64,000 nucleotides of DNA from Desulfobacteraceae bacterium (GTDB lineage: Bacteria > Desulfobacterota > Desulfobacteria > Desulfobacterales > Desulfosalsimonadaceae), in assembly GCA_014237465.1 (NCBI GenBank), contig JABZFM010000012.1:1-64000 (forward strand). The letters run 5' to 3'. The position numbers and the translations under genes are program-made. Below, piece by piece: positions 6,467-31,418 of the stretch; the stretch's first letter is position 1, and each line of letters begins with the position of its first letter. The notes below the pieces were generated by a model that saw nothing but the letters and a program-made list of their open reading frames with translations, was not told the origin of the DNA and ran no database searches.

Positions 6467-6928
6467 TTAATAGTCTTTTCGTTTGGCCCGATCCATCTCG
6501 CGTTTCATTTCGCGTTCTTTGATGGATTCTCTTTTGTCATATTTACGCTTGCCGCGGGCGAGCCCGATGGTAACTTTGGCTTTTCCGTTTTTAAAGTATA
6601 TTTTTAACGGAATCACTGAAAACCCTTTTTCCCTGATCTTGGCTTCCATTCGTTTGAGTTCGGATTTATGCAGGAGAAGCTTTCTCGGGCGTAACGGATC
6701 ATGGTTATCATAATAGGCAAAAGGATACGGACTGATATGCACCTGATGAAGGATCAGTTCGCCTTTTTCAATTCTGCCGTAAGCGTCTTTCAGGTTGGCT
6801 CCCCCTGATCGCAGGGATTTGACTTCAGTGCCCAGCAGCACCATTCCCGCTTCAATTTCTTCTGTGATTGAATAATTATGCCAGGCTTTCCGGTTTTTAG
6901 TGACAATTTTGATGTGGCTGTTTTCCAT
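6467..6928 (-). CDS. smpB: SsrA-binding protein SmpB
   Basis: A 153-residue SmpB, the tmRNA partner that places SsrA RNA in stalled ribosomes for trans-translation. The family features are present: an N-terminal NRKAWHNYSI block, GTEVKSLRSG, YDNHDPLRPRKLL, LKIYFKNGKAKVTIGLARGK and the basic tail DKRESIKEREMKREMDRAKR. It follows ptsI with 62 bp between, as in many Desulfobacterota. No ssrA RNA gene was recognised in the window. Confidence 0.97.
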   Translation of the reverse strand: MENSHIKIVTKNRKAWHNYSITEEIEAGMVLLGTEVKSLRSGGANLKDAYGRIEKGELILHQVHISPYPFAYYDNHDPLRPRKLLLHKSELKRMEAKIREKGFSVIPLKIYFKNGKAKVTIGLARGKRKYDKRESIKEREMKREMDRAKRKDY

Positions 6929-8763: not shown

Positions 8764-9045
8764 CTACTCCCTAAACCCTTTTTCAAACAGGTTGATCATT
8801 TCATTAAGAATGTCAATGTCTTCCGGATTTTCCACTTTCAGTGCCACATTTGCGCCTTTCAGGCAGGCAAGAGATAATATGTCAATAATGCTGGAGGCAT
8901 CCACCTCTTCTCCATTCTTGCAAAGCCAGACATCAGATTGCGCTTTAAGTGCAAGGTTCGCAAGCATTGCCGCCGGCCTGGCATGAAGGCCAAGTTCGTT
9001 AATTACGGTCGTTTTTCTGCTTAGATTATGGTCTATCTCATTCAT
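8764..9045 (-). CDS. ptsH: Phosphocarrier protein HPr
   Basis: A 93-residue HPr. The phosphorylation site is His21 in GLHARPAAML. The position equivalent to regulatory Ser46 is Ser52 in DASSIIDILSL, so control by an HPr kinase is possible, although no hprK is in the window. It is first in the ptsH-ptsI-smpB operon. In related genomes rpoN, hprK, rapZ and mannose-family EII genes often precede it (general knowledge); here a protease gene lies upstream instead. Confidence 0.94.
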   Translation of the reverse strand: MNEIDHNLSRKTTVINELGLHARPAAMLANLALKAQSDVWLCKNGEEVDASSIIDILSLACLKGANVALKVENPEDIDILNEMINLFEKGFRE

Positions 9046-9321: not shown

Positions 9322-12300
9322 TTATCTTATGATCAGCGCCGGGTCGCCCAGTAGATTATAAATATCCATCATATAGGGTGGCTTACCAGTTTGGTAATAG
9401 CTTTCAAGGGCTTTCAATACGACATCCCCAAGAATCTTTTCCTCGTCAGTAAAGAGTGAATGGAAGAAGTTTTTATTCAAAATTACTGATAGCTCATTGA
9501 ATGAGAGGCCAGTGGGTGACCATGTGGCTATTGCACCGCCACCTTCATGCAAAACCAACAGTTCAGCTAAAGAATCAAAGCCGGGAATAGCATACCGCCC
9601 CACCACACAGGTCATGGCGGTAACGATAGGAAGTTTTTTATTATTTTCAAGAAAAGCGACATCATTACTTAATAACATGCCTTCCTGGGCCAGGCGGTCG
9701 AGGCCGGCATGGCCCAAATAATTCAAAAGCAAGGCTCCGTCATTGATTTCATCAAGGATTAGCTGATGTGCTTCTTCAATCGGATATTCAGATAAATATA
9801 TCTTCTCCGCCAAGTATTCAGTGGGTAAAATTTCAGCAACTGCATTGCTGGCTGCCGGAAAATCACCCCCATCATCAGGATTATCGGCTACCATGAGAAT
9901 CTTGCGGGCCCAATTGCCATTTGCGCTTTCATATGCCTTTATTTTGTTGATCATTCCGTCAAACTCTTCAGAAGTAACGGCCGGCAGCCGTCCAATGGCA
10001 ATATCCGGAACGCCATCATTATCAAGTACATCCGCATAACGGTTATCTGAGGCAAAAAGCCCGTAAGGGGTAGCGACAAGGGGTGTGGGCACCATGTTGT
10101 CCCCATACCCCATATTGTCTTTATAGTCATATGTGCCAACACCTGCCAGAACCACATATCGGGGAGCCTTTTTCCAATTGTGATATGCAAAAGAGAGGAA
10201 TTCTTTTATGGCTTCCGGGCTGAAAACCCCCTCATTAAATTCATCCATAATCTCTTCAATGTCCACCACCATCGCATCAAGATTTTGGGCCTGCCGGTAA
10301 GCGGCAAGATCCTCAGCCGATTTTTTGAACTCTGAAGGCGCTATGATTAAATAGTCTGCCCGATTCTGTTTTTGTCTCAGGTCGGAGGTGTTATAAGCTG
10401 CAATAGAGAGCGGCGGGTTTGACATATTCTTAGTTGTTGCAAGATATAATATGTCGGAAGCTGCCGGCGTAAAACTTATTTGGTAACCGCTGCCGACATC
10501 TCCAATAACGGCCGCATTAATGATTCGGGGGGTTTTCGGATCCCCCAGATCAAAAACAAGGATGTCGTCACTGGTAAAGCCGGATACGGTGACCACATCG
10601 TGTTCGTCACCACGCAAAAACAACCTGTTATCAACTGCCTGGTAGTAACGCGGGTAAGCCAGATCAAAGGAGTCCACATAAAAGATACTGTAGGGCACGT
10701 CATCATCAAGGAGTCCGGTCACCTCAATGGTGTTTTTACCCTCATTCAAAAGATCCGGGCCAAATTCTAAAACCAGTTCATGGGACGAGGCTCCTGACCA
10801 GTGCCCCTCGCCGATCCATGTCTCATTTAGCGTTACTGAAACATAATGATCATTTTCGTTGTTATTGTCAGTAATCCCCAGAAGATAAACCGTCAGGCGG
10901 GCACTATCTGTTTCAGCCACACTATGTGTCGAAATATTAAAGGTCTTGGTGGAATGATCCGGATTGCCGGAAATAATAAAATCCCACAGCCAGTAATCAG
11001 CCATTGGGTCATCAAACAGGGCGGTTAACGCAAAATGGTCCTCCTCTGCATGAATCGTTTCTTCAAAAGCACCATTCCCAATAGCAGAAAAAGGCTGGTT
11101 TCCCTCAAATTTTATCATTTGCAATCCGTCGTCTTTTTTGCCGATCTTGAGCAAGTAGACATTACGGTCGGTGTAAATGCTGTTGATGGATTCTCCATAA
11201 AAATATATGCCTGCATTTTCGTCGGCACAAAGCCAGGCGATCTCTTTGCCTTGATTGTTTAATATGAATTGCTTTCGCTTGATCCGGCTTGAGACGGTGC
11301 TTGTGGTCTCTCCCATCACATATGCGATCTCGGCGGCATCGACATAGTAAAGACCGTTCTGGGCCACAGAGATTTTGGCTATGTCGCTTTTGGAATACTC
11401 TTTTGAGGCTTTTTTATCTGAATGCATGGCTGCGATTCTATCTTTTTTAGCTTCAGTCATCTGATGGGCGATGCTGCTGTATCCAGATTCGTTAACGATA
11501 TTTTCAGCTTGAAAGAATTTTTCAAAAGCCTCGTCCACAGATTCCCAACCCACAGTGACATTAAAAGGTCCATAGGTATTCTTTTTGCCTCGGTTATCAA
11601 CTTCCACCAGCTTATATGTATACGCCTTGCCTGGCGCTGCGCCTTTGTCCACGCATCGGTAAACCCCGCCCTGGGCTGCATTTAATAGTCCTGGCAGCAA
11701 TTTTTTATTTACCTTGAGGTATCTGCCGGTATCCGGATTGAGCCGGTAGAGGTCAAACCCTACAGTTCCGTTCTCCGTCCCTGTCTGCCATTCGATAAGC
11801 GCGCCCTTGACATGATCAAATGCACGGAAATCTGAAATAAGCGCATAAGTCGGATGAATGACACCGAATGCCTTTATGGCAAAGTTTGCACTCGAATTAT
11901 ATGTATGTAAATCAAACCAACTGGAACCGTCCGGGCCATAAAAGCTTTCCTCCCAGTTGGCTGTGGCTGCGCTTGAGTAGCCAGGGTAAGCATACTCATA
12001 ACTTTGAGGATAACCGTAGCCCGGCGTTGTCAACCCGATCACTACAGAGAAGTAACCTTCGTTAAGCAAGACTATGCTATACCCGGAGGTGGCCAGAGGC
12101 ACTGTTCGATACCCGGGGTATGTGATCGTGCCCGACTGCTCGTGCGCCAGTGTGCCGCTGTCCGGATTATCCGGCGTGACATTAATATATATTCTGATGG
12201 TGTATTCAGTATCTGGCACCTGTGCATAGAATGATACCGCATTGATCACGTGGTCGCTACCAGTGGTATTTTTGAAAATATTAGCACCCCAAAAAACATA

Positions 12301-13341
12301 ATTAGTCCCGCCATACCCTATGGTTCCTATTGCTCCCAAAGGATCATACTGGTATACGTGGTCGTAGTTGTCTGTTGGTTCTGCCAGGAACACGGCGCAA
12401 TTGGTTACAAACGGGTCGTAATAAGAAATCCATAAATATCCGCTGTTGGCCCAGGTTGTGCCCCAACTGTTTTTAATCAAAAAAGCACCGTCACCCGGCG
12501 GCTGATTCGAGCTGATAAAGTTTGTGGCTGAATAGTTATCATCCCATCCGGCAATAGTGACCCCATGGTTTGTGGAAGAACTGGCGCCGTTATAATAGTA
12601 TGCGCCATTGCTGTAATCAAAATAAGGGCTGTCACTAATCTGACTTCCCTCCCATCTCATGCTGGTTCGGAGGGCACCATAGGCCATTATTGCGTTTTTG
12701 ATTTCATCATTCAGAAGAGAACCGCCTCTGTCAGGAATGAAATAAACATCCTGACTATGTTTCTGAATGGTCAGCCCTCCTGGCGAAATGTTGCTAATCG
12801 TACTGTAAGGGTCGTCAATCTCATTGACCGGCCCGCTCCAGCGGGTCAGGTAGGCTGTGGATATTCCCCTGTTGCCGCCGTCGCAGTGTCCCCAGTCAAA
12901 TCCATGGGTGTTTTTCATGTTGTTTTCGGAGAAATTCCAGTTTTCAAAAATCAATTTAAGTAACGTGGACTCAAGGGAACCATAAGCCGCAAAGGCCCAG
13001 CAGCTACCGCAACCGCCCTGATTTTTAACTGAAGTCATTTCTCCCAGGTCATTGAGGTTGTATGAAAGGGGCGCACCTTCTTTAGGAAATGGGAGTTTGA
13101 TGTGCATGCCCTTTGTAAAGGAATAGTCGATCGGTGAAGGTATTTCCCCCAGCCCGAATTCATCTTCCCGTTCGCTGTCGGCTTTAATAAGCCCGGCGGT
13201 TTGCATGTATTGAACGAAAGCCGGGTTCAGGGGGGCGATGGTAGGTTCAGGGTCCGCAGCATCAACATTGCTCCCCCATATGGTTAAAATCAGTAAGCTT
13301 AAATAAAACAAGCAATTCAACGTAAAGGCCCTTTGCTTCAT
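9322..13341 (-). CDS. Secreted dual cysteine protease: papain-like C1 domain fused to gingipain-like C25 domain
   Basis: A 1339-residue exported protein. Residues 1-29 are a signal peptide. A papain-type C1 domain spans about 95-320 with Gln108, Cys114 (QGGCGSCW), His259 (TNHGV) and Asn291 (KNSWG). About 330-495 is a beta-rich stretch, and about 500-600 resembles a fibronectin-III-like module (EWQTGTENGTVGFDLYR). About 640-980 is another beta-rich region like the segment found before C25 domains. The C-terminal 350 residues form a C25 (gingipain-like) catalytic domain with His1211 (NYLGHAG) and Cys1245 (TAMTCVVG), ending NLLGDPALIIR as in that family. Both active sites look intact. The two folds belong to unrelated protease clans (CA and CD). 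AAGGA precedes the ATG. It is monocistronic. It may degrade extracellular protein or process cell-surface proteins; the biological target is unknown. Confidence 0.9.
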   Translation of the reverse strand: MKQRAFTLNCLFYLSLLILTIWGSNVDAADPEPTIAPLNPAFVQYMQTAGLIKADSEREDEFGLGEIPSPIDYSFTKGMHIKLPFPKEGAPLSYNLNDLGEMTSVKNQGGCGSCWAFAAYGSLESTLLKLIFENWNFSENNMKNTHGFDWGHCDGGNRGISTAYLTRWSGPVNEIDDPYSTISNISPGGLTIQKHSQDVYFIPDRGGSLLNDEIKNAIMAYGALRTSMRWEGSQISDSPYFDYSNGAYYYNGASSSTNHGVTIAGWDDNYSATNFISSNQPPGDGAFLIKNSWGTTWANSGYLWISYYDPFVTNCAVFLAEPTDNYDHVYQYDPLGAIGTIGYGGTNYVFWGANIFKNTTGSDHVINAVSFYAQVPDTEYTIRIYINVTPDNPDSGTLAHEQSGTITYPGYRTVPLATSGYSIVLLNEGYFSVVIGLTTPGYGYPQSYEYAYPGYSSAATANWEESFYGPDGSSWFDLHTYNSSANFAIKAFGVIHPTYALISDFRAFDHVKGALIEWQTGTENGTVGFDLYRLNPDTGRYLKVNKKLLPGLLNAAQGGVYRCVDKGAAPGKAYTYKLVEVDNRGKKNTYGPFNVTVGWESVDEAFEKFFQAENIVNESGYSSIAHQMTEAKKDRIAAMHSDKKASKEYSKSDIAKISVAQNGLYYVDAAEIAYVMGETTSTVSSRIKRKQFILNNQGKEIAWLCADENAGIYFYGESINSIYTDRNVYLLKIGKKDDGLQMIKFEGNQPFSAIGNGAFEETIHAEEDHFALTALFDDPMADYWLWDFIISGNPDHSTKTFNISTHSVAETDSARLTVYLLGITDNNNENDHYVSVTLNETWIGEGHWSGASSHELVLEFGPDLLNEGKNTIEVTGLLDDDVPYSIFYVDSFDLAYPRYYQAVDNRLFLRGDEHDVVTVSGFTSDDILVFDLGDPKTPRIINAAVIGDVGSGYQISFTPAASDILYLATTKNMSNPPLSIAAYNTSDLRQKQNRADYLIIAPSEFKKSAEDLAAYRQAQNLDAMVVDIEEIMDEFNEGVFSPEAIKEFLSFAYHNWKKAPRYVVLAGVGTYDYKDNMGYGDNMVPTPLVATPYGLFASDNRYADVLDNDGVPDIAIGRLPAVTSEEFDGMINKIKAYESANGNWARKILMVADNPDDGGDFPAASNAVAEILPTEYLAEKIYLSEYPIEEAHQLILDEINDGALLLNYLGHAGLDRLAQEGMLLSNDVAFLENNKKLPIVTAMTCVVGRYAIPGFDSLAELLVLHEGGGAIATWSPTGLSFNELSVILNKNFFHSLFTDEEKILGDVVLKALESYYQTGKPPYMMDIYNLLGDPALIIR

Positions 13342-13715
13342 GTAATAAAATCCTTTCTGGTAATTCAGACACTTGTATTATTTGAATATCATGAATTTTT
13401 TAGTCAAGAAAAACAAATTTGGGGATACCGTGACGAAGATAATGATTTTTATTTATATTTGCAGAAAAATCAAAAGTGTAATTTCTAAATAGGTTCAGTC
13501 ATTAAAAACATCCATGTTTTTCTAAAAGATATTGTATGCATAAACGTAATGAATATCAAGATAATCATATCGCAATGAGTTGTAATCAATCACACAAAGT
13601 AAATCATTGACAACCGCCGGGCTGGCTGATATTTTTATTAACCATTTAAAGTTATAACTAATTGAATTTATGTATTTTTTGTTAATCAAAACCATTTCAC
13701 CAATGGAGGTTTCCC
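13342..13715. other. Divergent intergenic region, protease / selenoprotein
   Basis: A 374-bp AT-rich gap between divergently transcribed genes. A good plus-strand promoter is described separately at 13607. No convincing minus-strand promoter was found for the protease; a TTGACT lies about 60 bp upstream of its start but the -10 match is poor. No gene was recognised. Confidence 0.5.
13607..13635 (+). promoter_or_regulatory. Candidate sigma70 promoter of the selenoprotein gene
   Basis: TTGACA (13607-13612), a 17-nt spacer, then TATTTT (13630-13635). The -35 is perfect and the -10 matches 4 of 6. It would give a leader of roughly 75 nt before the GTG start at 13716. Confidence 0.45.
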
Positions 13716-13943
13716 GTGGAATCAAAAATTCATATTTATGGAAAGTCGACATGACCGTTTACCAATGCAGCTCGTGAAGCTTACGCAAAGAAGGATGCTG
13801 AAGTTGAGTATATTGATGTTTTGGCAAATGATGAGAATATGGAATCCATGCTTAAATTCTCGGACGGCAGCCGAAGAGTACCCGTCATTGTTGACGGAGA
13901 AAAGATCGCCATTGGTTTCAACGGCCGGAGCTGACGTGTTTAG
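13716..13943 (+). CDS. Double-selenocysteine glutaredoxin-like protein (UXX-star family)
   Basis: A 75-residue protein missed by ordinary gene calling because it contains two in-frame TGA codons: Sec13 (13752-13754) and Sec73 (13932-13934), ending at TAG 13941-13943. Read through, it gives a small thioredoxin/glutaredoxin fold. Strand 1 is KIHIYGKST, the active site is T-U-P-F-T, then helix NAAREAYAKK, EVEYIDVLAN, and the cis-Pro region RRVPVIVDGEK, followed by IAIGFNGRS-U-RV. This matches my memory of the UXX-star (seleno)protein family, whose members carry Sec or Cys in the first motif and often a second near the C-terminus. The start is GTG with GGAGG six bases upstream. Each TGA is followed by a SECIS-like hairpin whose loop begins exactly 18 nt downstream. 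A thiol/selenol redox role is inferred. It needs SelA, SelB, SelC and SelD from elsewhere in the genome. Confidence 0.88.
13752..13787 (+). promoter_or_regulatory. Candidate bacterial SECIS element for Sec13
   Basis: After the UGA there is an 11-nt spacer, then a 5' arm TGCAGCT (13766-13772), loop CGTGA (13773-13777), and a 3' arm AGCT (13778-13781) plus GCA (13785-13787) with a 3-nt bulge. The loop begins 18 nt after the UGA and has G as its second base, as expected for SelB-recognised bacterial SECIS hairpins. Confidence 0.6.
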
Positions 13944-13964
13944 TCAGCTGGCAGGATGCCGGTT
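13932..13964 (+). promoter_or_regulatory. Candidate bacterial SECIS element for Sec73, spanning the stop codon
   Basis: After the second UGA there is again an 11-nt spacer (containing the TAG stop), then AGCTGGC (13946-13952), loop AGGAT (13953-13957) and GCCGGTT (13958-13964). Seven base pairs form, including two G-U pairs. The loop begins 18 nt after the UGA with G as its second base, the same geometry as the first hairpin. Confidence 0.65.
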
Positions 13965-13999
13965 CAACAATACTAAAAAACAAAGAGAACAGGATAATA

Positions 14000-14656
14000 A
14001 TGGAAAAACAATATTTGATTGATGAAATGGAACTCAGCGAAGCCTGGCGGCTTTTCAGGATTATCGGGGAATTCGTTGAAGGCGTGGAGGAAATGCATGA
14101 TATCGGGCCGGCGGTGAGTATTTTCGGGTCCGCCCGGATGAAGCCGGATGACCCGTATTATCAGCGTACTGTTGAAATTTCCGGGATGCTTGCGGAAAAC
14201 GGGTTTACCGTGATTACCGGCGGCGGGGGCGGCATAATGGAGGCAGCCAATAAAGGGGCTGCAGAGAAAAACGGAAAATCGGTGGGCTTGAATATTGTGC
14301 TTCCCATGGAGCAGGAACCCAATCCCTATTCAAATATCAAAGTCGAGTTTAATTATTTTTTTATTCGTAAAGTGATGTTTATTAAATACGCTATGGCATA
14401 TGTTATTATGCCCGGCGGATTCGGTACGTTAGACGAGCTTTTTGAAGCCGTAACATTGATTCAGACCAAGCGGGTGAAACCGCTTCCGGTCATTTTATTT
14501 GGTTCGGAATACTGGGGCGGACTGGTGGAGTGGATTAAGGCCAGGCTCCTGGAAGACAAGCTGATTTCTCCGGATGATTTAGACATTTTAAAGGTAACCG
14601 ATGATCCTGAAGAGATTTTAAAGATTGTGAAGGGGGTTGCCGCGCTGGTCTCATAA
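14000..14656 (+). CDS. LOG family protein (TIGR00730-type, lysine-decarboxylase-like fold)
   Basis: A 218-residue Rossmann-like protein with the LOG hallmarks VSIFGSARM (39-47), TGGGGGIMEAANKGA (73-87) and PGGFGTLDE (138-146). Family members studied biochemically release cytokinin-type bases or ribose 5-phosphate from nucleoside monophosphates. Many bacterial members are annotated as lysine decarboxylases in error. The substrate here is unknown. It starts 56 bp after the selenoprotein gene in the same direction, so they may share a transcript. Confidence 0.88.
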   Translation: MEKQYLIDEMELSEAWRLFRIIGEFVEGVEEMHDIGPAVSIFGSARMKPDDPYYQRTVEISGMLAENGFTVITGGGGGIMEAANKGAAEKNGKSVGLNIVLPMEQEPNPYSNIKVEFNYFFIRKVMFIKYAMAYVIMPGGFGTLDELFEAVTLIQTKRVKPLPVILFGSEYWGGLVEWIKARLLEDKLISPDDLDILKVTDDPEEILKIVKGVAALVS

Positions 14657-29194: not shown

Positions 29195-29201
29195 CCGAAT
29201 A

Positions 29202-29308
29202 TCTCACAAGCCTGATTCGCCCATTTGTTTCGTTATAAGCGGTTCGCGGTAAAACCACTACAGCTTCACCCCTTATGCCTCGCAAATGAACGAATCAGAC
29301 TCGTGAGA
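29202..29308. repeat. Palindromic element, family C
   Basis: A 107-bp near-palindrome just after the RNase gene. The outer arms of 26 nt (29202-29227 and 29283-29308) differ at only four places. An inner pair around CGTTATAAG / CCTTATGCC continues the stem. In a minus-strand transcript all four outer mismatches become G-U pairs. It could act as a transcription end or as a mobile repeat. Confidence 0.6.
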
Positions 29309-29509
29309 AATCCGTCTTGGCGAGGAAACAGCGCTTTGCTGTTACGTCGTTTTCATTGGGTTGTTAAATTCGTGGCGGCCAATGCCACTTGGGAGATTGG
29401 GGGTTCAGGTTTCAGGTGTCAGCAATACGAGTAAAAAATCCTGAGCACTGAAATCGCTTCAAGTTGAATTGTAATATTAAGAAAATTTCTGATTCCCTGA
29501 ATAACAGGT

Positions 29510-29538
29510 ATGCATTCCCACGGACCGTGGGAACGAGG
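29510..29538. repeat. Palindrome D, copy 1
   Basis: ATGCATTCCCACGG, one base, then CCGTGGGAACGAGG: a 9-bp hairpin (29515-29523 with 29525-29533). It lies ahead of the ParD/RelE-like pair. The rest of 29309-29745 holds a small hairpin (AACAGC-GCTTT-GCTGTT, about 29327-29343) and no gene that I can support. Confidence 0.75.
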
Positions 29539-29670
29539 GAATTTTACAATTAACTTGTGTATTGTAAGCAGAGCCACTACCAAGTGCATTCCCCGAATTT
29601 GTTTGTTGCTTCGCTCCTCTCAAATCGGATGATGCCGGACATTAGCCTTCCAATAATGCCATGCGAGCCA

Positions 29671-29698
29671 TATTGCAATAATGTGTTGCATCTTGCAA
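29671..29698 (+). promoter_or_regulatory. Candidate operator/promoter of the ParD/RelE-like pair
   Basis: A 10-bp palindrome TATTGCAATA (29671-29680) is followed by TTGCA-TCT-TGCAA (29686-29698). TTGCAT (29686-29691) and TAAAAT (29709-29714) are 17 nt apart and could be -35 and -10 boxes. Antitoxin binding here would give the usual autoregulation. Confidence 0.4.
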
Positions 29699-29745
29699 TT
29701 TTCTATAGTAAAATTACGGTAATAATATTTTAGGAGGTAACTATA

Positions 29746-29964
29746 ATGCCAACAGCAGTAAGAATTACCGATGATTTGGTTCGGGACGCAAAGATATTCA
29801 GTAAAATTGATAAACGTTCGTTAACAGGTCAGATTGAGTATTGGGCGCGAATTGGCAAGTGTGCTGAAGAAAATCCTGATTTAACCTATGGACTGATTAA
29901 AGATATTCTATTAGGTCTTGCAGAGCTTGAACAAGGTGAATTATCAGAGTATAAATTCGGATAA
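29746..29964 (+). CDS. ParD-like antitoxin
   Basis: A 72-residue protein. AVRITDDLVRDAKIFSKIDKRSLTGQIEYWARIGK is a ribbon-helix-helix-like DNA-binding unit of the ParD-like antitoxin group. The acidic C-terminus would wrap the toxin. GGAGG stands seven bases ahead of the ATG. The toxin gene follows after 5 bp. Confidence 0.82.
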   Translation: MPTAVRITDDLVRDAKIFSKIDKRSLTGQIEYWARIGKCAEENPDLTYGLIKDILLGLAELEQGELSEYKFG

Positions 29965-29969
29965 TCGAA

Positions 29970-30251
29970 ATGAAAATCCTTCAATCCCGATCATTTGAAC
30001 GAAAAGTTAAAAAGTTTACTAAACTAGAAAAAAAGGCATTAGACAAACAGATTTTAAAAATTGCCAAGAACCCATCTGCTGGGATAGAAAAAAAAGGCGA
30101 TCTCCGTGGAGTATATGTTCATAAATTTAAGATTCAAACCATGCAATATTTGCTCTCATATCGCTTTGTCGGGACAGGAATGGAATTAATTATGATTGGC
30201 GCTCATGAAAATTACTATCGAGATTTAAAAAACTATCTGAAAACGAGATGA
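29970..30251 (+). CDS. RelE/YafQ-type toxin
   Basis: A 93-residue basic protein (SFERKVKKFTKLEKKALDKQI, then KGDLRGVYVHKFKIQTMQYLLSYRF, ending LIMIGAHENYYRDLKNYLK) with the ParE/RelE layout: two N-terminal helices and a small sheet. Such toxins are ribosome-dependent mRNA endonucleases or gyrase poisons; which applies here cannot be told. The C-terminal His-Glu-Asn-Tyr-Tyr resembles the RelE group. Confidence 0.82.
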   Translation: MKILQSRSFERKVKKFTKLEKKALDKQILKIAKNPSAGIEKKGDLRGVYVHKFKIQTMQYLLSYRFVGTGMELIMIGAHENYYRDLKNYLKTR

Positions 30252-30276
30252 AACTTTAGTTATTTGGAGAATAGAT

Positions 30277-30308
30277 ATGCGTTCCCACGGGGGACCGTGG
30301 GAACGAGG
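30277..30308. repeat. Palindrome D, copy 2
   Basis: GTTCCCACGG, 4-nt loop GGGA, CCGTGGGAAC (30281-30304) followed by GAGG. Same orientation as copies 1 and 3. It lies 25 bp after the toxin gene. Confidence 0.78.
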
Positions 30309-30419
30309 AAAGCTAATCAAAGCAAAGTAAAAAGCTTTTCAATGTGACGTTGCAGCATTTTTACGTGCAAATAATAACGGCTGGACAACCGAAAATAAAC
30401 TGATTTATTGGATTTTATT

Positions 30420-30653
30420 ATGCACTTTGCTATAATTGGAAATATTGAGGAAATTGAAACCATAGCGGCAGGTGGAAATATTCGAGATATAATGCGGCTT
30501 CATAAGCAATATGGTTTTGGACGGTGGCGGAAACTTAAGGGAATAGCAGTTATTCGTCTTCAAAATGGTAATGTTCGAAAAGCTGAGCTCCATTGGTATG
30601 AAGCCCATGGTATCGGCAAAAAGAAAATGAAAATCAAAAAGTTTATGGATTAA
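30420..30653 (+). CDS. Conserved small protein, unrecognised function
   Basis: About 77 residues from ATG 30420: MHFAIIGNIEEIETIAAGG, RDIMRLHKQYGFGRWRKLKGIAVIRLQNG, KAELHWYEAHGIGKKKMKIKKF. The pattern GRWRKxKGxAxxRL...AExHWYEAxGIG is familiar from many uncharacterised bacterial proteins. The basic, compact fold would suit RNA or protein binding. It is translationally close (3 bp) to the next gene, which suggests a two-gene unit and possibly a toxin-antitoxin-like pair; that is inference only. Confidence 0.72.
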   Translation: MHFAIIGNIEEIETIAAGGNIRDIMRLHKQYGFGRWRKLKGIAVIRLQNGNVRKAELHWYEAHGIGKKKMKIKKFMD

Positions 30654-30656
30654 GAA

Positions 30657-30887
30657 ATGAAGAAAAACAATGATAAATTAAAATATGCTCTTTGTGTAGA
30701 TAATAAAGATTGCGAAGATTTAGAAAAACGCAAGATTTATCAAATCCTTCATGATGAAGAAGCCCAAAACGATGGTTATCTGAGAGTTTTTGATGAATCA
30801 GGAGAAGATTATCTTTATCCCGCATCCTATTTTATTTTTGTACAACTTCCTGAAGAAGCGCAAGAAGCACTGCGCTTAACAGCCTAA
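30657..30887 (+). CDS. Small acidic protein, partner of the preceding gene
   Basis: 76 residues: KYALCVDNKDCEDLEKRKIYQILHDE, then GYLRVFDESGEDYLYPASYFIFVQLPEEAQEAL. The protein is acidic, opposite in charge to its upstream neighbour. The motif YLRVxDESGEDYLYPxxxF is recurrent in small uncharacterised proteins I have seen next to similar partners. Function not recognised. Confidence 0.72.
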   Translation: MKKNNDKLKYALCVDNKDCEDLEKRKIYQILHDEEAQNDGYLRVFDESGEDYLYPASYFIFVQLPEEAQEALRLTA

Positions 30888-30938
30888 ATTGTCTGTTATT
30901 ATTTTTCAATCGTAGCGTGCAGTTGGTTGGCGGATTTT

Positions 30939-30970
30939 ATGCATTCCCACGGGGGACCGTGGGAACGAGG
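30939..30970. repeat. Palindrome D, copy 3
   Basis: ATTCCCACGGGGGACCGTGGGAACGAGG with the same hairpin and loop as copy 2. It lies 52 bp after the small acidic protein and 53 bp before the truncated nuclease-like gene. Confidence 0.78.
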
Positions 30971-31022
30971 AAAAAATACAAGATGTTAGCTTGGCCTGGC
31001 CCTATCCAAGTTAGGAAAAAAT

Positions 31023-31418
31023 ATGCGTATAGAAAATTCAAAAGGTTATGAAATTTTGAATCTCGCTGATTGGGCGAAGCTTTATGATACGCCTCAGTCA
31101 TCCCACCACTGGAAAGAACACCGAAGCGCTTATTCCGCAGCCGAGTTCATTATGAATCGAAATGGTGGTGCCGCTATTCAATCGCGAGTATCTGACGCGC
31201 TGTGTAGAGCAGTGAACTTTCAACGCGCAATTCCGGAATTTGAAGTTCGGTTCGACGAATTTGGACGCGGGCGGATACACGATATCGCTATCTTCGGCAC
31301 TACCGATTCAGGAGAAAGCGTTTTTGTTGGCGTCGAAGCCAAAGTCGATGAAACGTTTGGTAGTTTAGTCCATGACGCATATTTGACAGCTAAAGGCTGC
31401 CGCGCAACCCAAAGCTAA
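31023..31418 (+). pseudogene. Truncated PD-(D/E)XK-like protein gene
   Basis: 131 codons. Residues 30-115 look native (HHWKEHRSAYSAAEFIMN, IPEFEVRFDEFGRGRIHDIAIFG, FVGVEAKVDETFG); the acidic residues followed by VEAK suggest a PD-(D/E)XK nuclease-like core. The last residues (KGCRATQS) are encoded by the left part of a family B repeat fragment that begins near 31393, so the original 3' end has been lost. The upstream side carries palindrome D. I regard it as a remnant. Confidence 0.6.

Follow-up and report, generated by a model that had tools for sequence, protein, structure and literature searches.

The UXX-star selenoprotein gene and its reading frame

We analyzed a stretch of 64,000 nucleotides from the genome of a Desulfobacteraceae bacterium, an organism of the sulfate-reducer type (contig JABZFM010000012.1, positions 1 to 64,000; hereafter, the window), in which a short gene on the forward strand is interrupted by two in-frame TGA codons that almost certainly both encode selenocysteine (Sec, U), judging from conservation and hairpin signals. 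The gene and its associated elements are as follows.

13705-13709, + strand: GGAGG ribosome-binding site, spaced 6 nt from the GTG (read from the sequence)
13716-13943, + strand: gene for a UXX-star family 1 selenoprotein (75 codons, then TAG), with two in-frame TGA codons
13716-13718, + strand: GTG start codon (read from the sequence)
13752-13754, + strand: TGA codon 13, predicted Sec13 in T-U-P-F-T, at the position of the active cysteine of glutaredoxins
13769-13781, + strand: SECIS-like hairpin 1, stem AGCT/AGCT, whose loop CGTGA (13773-13777) begins at +21 relative to the first base of the first UGA (SECIS, selenocysteine insertion sequence)
13932-13934, + strand: TGA codon 73, predicted Sec73 in U-R-V-stop (the UXX-star)
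13941-13943, + strand: TAG stop codon (read from the sequence)
13946-13964, + strand: SECIS-like hairpin 2, 7-bp stem AGCTGGC/GCCGGTT, with the loop AGGAT at 13953-13957 (predicted by folding)

The initial annotation had described a 75-codon frame with a GTG start, a GGAGG site, TGA as codons 13 and 73, and TAG as the terminator, all of which are present in the sequence; it had also suggested a match to the UXX-star family, and this was confirmed by profile searches. The translation scored 106.5 bits (E = 5.8e-31) against NCBIfam NF041114, UXX-star selenoprotein family 1, whose curated cut-off is 72 bits, and the match covered model positions 1 to 70 of 70; against the broader Uxx-star subfamily model it scored 84.7 bits. 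NF041114 was likewise matched by all 69 aligned family members, and the window protein displays the features expected of the family, namely, two Sec residues (codons 13 and 73), the first of them in a UxxT motif, and a C-terminal U-R-V followed by TAG. We read the family name itself as a description of this U-X-X-stop terminus. A 2026 review lists "distant Grx-like protein 1 (UXX-star selenoprotein family 1)" with the motif UxxT and two Sec residues (PMC13188914), indicating that a double Sec is the family norm and not a peculiarity of the window genome. The remark in the initial annotation that two Sec residues would be unusual in so small a protein thus did not hold.

Read with the standard code, the region is mainly covered by an unrelated open reading frame (ORF) in a different frame (13738-14022). 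This ORF, the sole other-frame competitor, was rejected, as stop codons break it in nearly all close relatives. Searches of plasmid and phage collections found no match. Standard gene callers overlook or cut short genes of this double-UGA type.

Conservation and decoding of the two UGA codons

The gene was found above the cut-off in 94 of 195 relatives, and a scan of genome contigs together with fetched stretches brought the collection to 101 loci distinct in DNA. Beyond the window, the frame is retained in 100 further distinct loci, with TGA or a cysteine codon at codon 13 (site 1) and TGA at codon 73 (site 2). Site 1 is U in 92 of the 101 members and C in 9, and both TGA codons are kept in 92 distinct loci; the nine Cys-bearing members (L011, L012, L013, L040, L068, L090, L102, L120, and L121) all retain Sec at site 2. 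Site 2 is U in 101/101 members and Cys in none, a count that covers loci retrieved with the family model or the window protein and read by a parser that accepted U or C at this site, so that remoter forms may have been missed. Columns that are invariant or nearly so include I7, G9, K10, U13, P14, T16, A19, R20, P56, G67, and U73. The ratio of nonsynonymous to synonymous substitution rates (dN/dS) of the window gene, computed against five relatives (L002, L003, L004, L062, and L116), was 0.08 to 0.16 over the whole gene and 0.06 to 0.23 over codons 14 to 72, showing that the frame is under purifying selection.

The few codons behind the second UGA are conserved as well. The codon immediately following it encodes G or R in 92 members and the next one V or I in 96, with all four valine codons (GTN) in use, while a stop codon lies precisely three codons after the UGA in 99 members (TGA in 46, TAA in 35, and TAG in 18). 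Conservation at the codon level ceases 3' of this stop. Since the two residues are conserved, the wobble position is free, and the stop stands at +3, the segment after the second UGA looks translated rather than untranslated.

Just downstream of each UGA there is a hairpin of the kind expected of a bacterial SECIS, with its loop at +21 and, in most members, a G in the apical loop. Within hairpin 1, two wobble-position pairs covary, and the second loop position is G in 91 of 92 sequences. The pair closing its loop is retained in 87 of the 92 members with Sec at site 1 compared to 2 of the 9 members with Cys (P = 1.5e-6 by a Fisher test that treats sequences as units), and this loss in the Cys members, a control within the family, supports a role of hairpin 1 in Sec insertion. 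The loop of hairpin 2 likewise begins at +21 relative to the first base of its UGA, and the whole stem is located 3' of the TAG. Neither this placement nor the invariance of the C-terminal Sec had been noticed in the initial annotation. Its stem levels are paired in 86 to 97% of the members by several types of pair, and G occupies loop position 2 in 92 of 101. The best hairpin after the second UGA passed the same threshold in a fraction of 0.94 of the members and 0.18 of shuffled sequences, and its loop began at +21 to +28 in 94% and 26%, respectively. An Rfam search for SECIS elements returned nothing at the gathering score and only chance-level matches. The possibility that hairpin 2 is a transcription terminator was set aside on inspection of the sequence, as the window shows no run of T after it.

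The genome, assembled into 70 contigs totaling 5.09 Mb, encodes selA, selB, selD, and a tRNA-Sec with the anticodon TCA. Three checks named in the initial annotation, namely, U or C at both positions among homologues, Sec machinery in the genome, and coding constraint after codon 13, thus all came out in its favor. The selD gene of this genome (L019, 1501-2421; G000:C63:107176-108096) contains one in-frame TGA and probably encodes a selenoprotein itself. Of the 195 relatives searched, 178 gave a SelA match, and the phylogenetic profile of the gene against SelA is therefore uninformative; ten genomes carried the gene above the cut-off without a SelA match, and such absences may be due to incomplete drafts.

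The stop codons add a further peculiarity. In 46 of the 101 members (e.g., L006, L010, and L016), a terminating UGA lies 9 nt after the UGA read as Sec, whereas the window gene uses TAG. No selection against UGA as the terminal stop was seen, UGA accounting for 46 of 99 stops in the family and for 21 of 48 in the LOG-like genes downstream. A Sec-encoding UGA may be told from a terminating one by how far each lies from the hairpin, and members in which the two UGA codons stand 9 nt apart, nearly half of the family, represent a natural test of the precision with which a SECIS hairpin selects its codon. Most selenoprotein families have relatives with Cys at the Sec sites, and the C-terminal site departs from this usual pattern, a Cys relative being found in 0 of 101 members. 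It is possible, although we would put it somewhat below even odds, that the C-terminal Sec, and not that of the active site, is the irreplaceable one and is inserted by means of the post-stop hairpin, that members with a UGA stop separate Sec from stop by hairpin distance alone, and that the protein performs selenol-specific chemistry beyond the reach of Cys.

Gene neighborhood and other features of the window

The genes surrounding the selenoprotein gene are listed below.

6467-6928: SmpB-like gene, named by eye from its opening residues
6991-8757, - strand: phosphotransferase system (PTS) enzyme I gene, adjoining the HPr gene (TIGR01417, 603 bits)
8764-9045, - strand: HPr (PTS) gene, divergent (PF00381)
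9322-13341, - strand: papain/C25-type peptidase gene, 1339 residues, between the HPr and selenoprotein genes
14000-14656, + strand: downstream gene for a TIGR00730/LOG-like Rossmann protein (TIGR00730, 148.4 bits)

In 53 of the 101 loci, the gene immediately past the selenoprotein gene on its strand is a LOG-like homologue. In the window the two genes are separated by a 56-nt gap containing hairpin 2, which makes their cotranscription plausible. Divergent upstream genes across the 101 loci were HPr-like in 54 cases, enzyme I-like in 53, and SmpB-like in 32, the last again named by eye. In 54 other loci little separates the selenoprotein gene from the HPr-like gene upstream of it, while in the window the 9322-13341 gene intervenes; its product shows papain-family, lectin-like, and C25 peptidase domains, and PorU models matched it partially and below the cut-off.

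Elsewhere in the window, positions 29195 to 31023 form 1.8 kb without an ORF of at least 100 amino acids. This region holds small frames at 29734-29961 and from 29955, the latter toxin-like by eye. A palindromic repeat with the core TTCCCACGG...CCGTGGGAA occurs in three copies at about 29522, 30276, and 30938.

Predicted fold, proposed function, and relation to known families

An AlphaFold2 model built from the alignment of 69 members (mean predicted local distance difference test score [pLDDT], 86) displayed a beta-alpha-beta-alpha-beta-beta order with a short extra C-terminal strand and without the last helix. Its best matches in the PDB were glutaredoxins and NrdH-like proteins (template modeling [TM] scores, 0.74 to 0.78), the first being the glutaredoxin 3ic4 (TM score, 0.74).

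Taken as a whole, the data are best explained by a functional two-Sec UXX-star selenoprotein in which each UGA has its own hairpin and the two Sec residues form a redox pair, a reading to which we assign a probability of about 50%. According to this proposal, SelB and Sec-tRNA would decode UGA13 and UGA73, as the conservation and the hairpins suggest, with a separate hairpin for each codon whose apical loop comes about 21 nt later; the hairpin for Sec73 would lie in the spacer past the TAG. The product is predicted to fold as a minimal glutaredoxin lacking the last helix, and by analogy with that fold, Sec13, located where helix 1 begins and opposite the conserved VP loop, would act as the nucleophile. 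As there is no second Cys within T-U-P-F-T, the residue most naturally paired with Sec13 would be Sec73, and most likely it would provide the second group, either through a transient Se-Se bond (Se-S in members with Cys13) or by sharing the substrate. The initial annotation had likewise suggested that the two Sec residues may form a diselenide or a resolving pair. The overall role would most likely be a reducing or selenol-transfer step in the thiol chemistry of an anaerobe. Two points weigh against this proposal: the modeled tail continues past strand 4 as a short additional strand and need not place Sec13 and Sec73 within bonding distance, and the related members compared in the Fisher test on hairpin 1 are not independent of one another.

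A different use of the same two Sec residues would be a high-affinity ligand site for metals or metalloids (mercury, arsenic, or organometals) instead of a redox couple. Metal-ligand or unknown-substrate roles have been proposed for the Sec residues of UXX-star proteins (PMC13188914), and the fact that site 2 is never Cys in the 101 members suggests selenol-specific chemistry. Yet the glutaredoxin fold and active-site features are conserved, and the LOG-like, HPr, enzyme I, and SmpB-like neighbors are not metal-resistance genes, leaving us to regard a mainly metal-binding pair as unlikely, though the least so of the alternatives. Still less credit goes to a glutathione-linked, monothiol-type selenoglutaredoxin in which Sec13 is the sole catalyst and Sec73 merely tunes binding or targeting. 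The UxxT motif does resemble that of single-nucleophile glutaredoxins, and both K10 and the VP loop, which correspond to positions that contact glutathione in glutaredoxins, are conserved. But the last helix of glutaredoxins is missing from the model, and Cys is accepted at site 1 and not at site 2, the opposite of what a tuning role for Sec73 predicts.

Two further alternatives concern decoding and are far less probable. If only UGA13 were read as Sec and UGA73 were a true stop, the product would lose just the three residues U-R-V, a small cost that makes the idea conceivable. The codons at +1 and +2 are nonetheless conserved as amino acids with a free wobble position and a stop at +3 in 99 of 101 members, a dedicated hairpin follows UGA73 at the same spacing as that of UGA13, and TGA is invariant at site 2 even though TAA or TAG would serve equally well as a stop; we thus consider this reading very improbable. 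An interrupted frame is also what a standard-code gene caller would meet in a glutaredoxin pseudogene that had decayed and acquired stop codons, but here the whole-gene dN/dS of 0.08 to 0.16 against close relatives, the retention of both TGA codons in 92 distinct loci, and the complete Sec machinery leave virtually no room for decay, and the pseudogene reading is already refuted by the conservation data together with dN/dS.

With respect to known systems, the two-Sec gene of the window shares with UXX-star family 1 (NF041114) its length, the U-P-[FYH]-T motif, the U-X-X-stop C terminus, and the two Sec residues, and the differences are minor, the GTG start, TAG stop, and R-V tail falling within the usual variation. 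UXX-star families 2 and 3 (NF041211 and NF047338) and the HUGP/GUXX-star fusion (NF045501) belong to the common Uxx-star group and are related in sequence over nearly the whole length, but the window protein scored below their cut-offs (60.4 of 100, 53.2 of 97, and 41.7 of 325 bits, respectively). Classical glutaredoxins and NrdH (PF00462, TIGR02181, and TIGR02194) share the fold and the active-site position of the first Sec, and the Pfam glutaredoxin model PF00462 was indeed passed (43 bits; gathering score, 22.9); the equivalog models, in contrast, stayed below their cut-offs (TIGR02181, 34.7 of 90; TIGR02180, 25.8 of 87.25; TIGR02194, 25.3 of 85.75). Unlike these proteins, the window protein has no second motif Cys, lacks the last helix in the model, and carries a second Sec at its C terminus. 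The gene is thus a real and well-supported addition to the catalogued UXX-star family 1, whose two-Sec architecture is already known.
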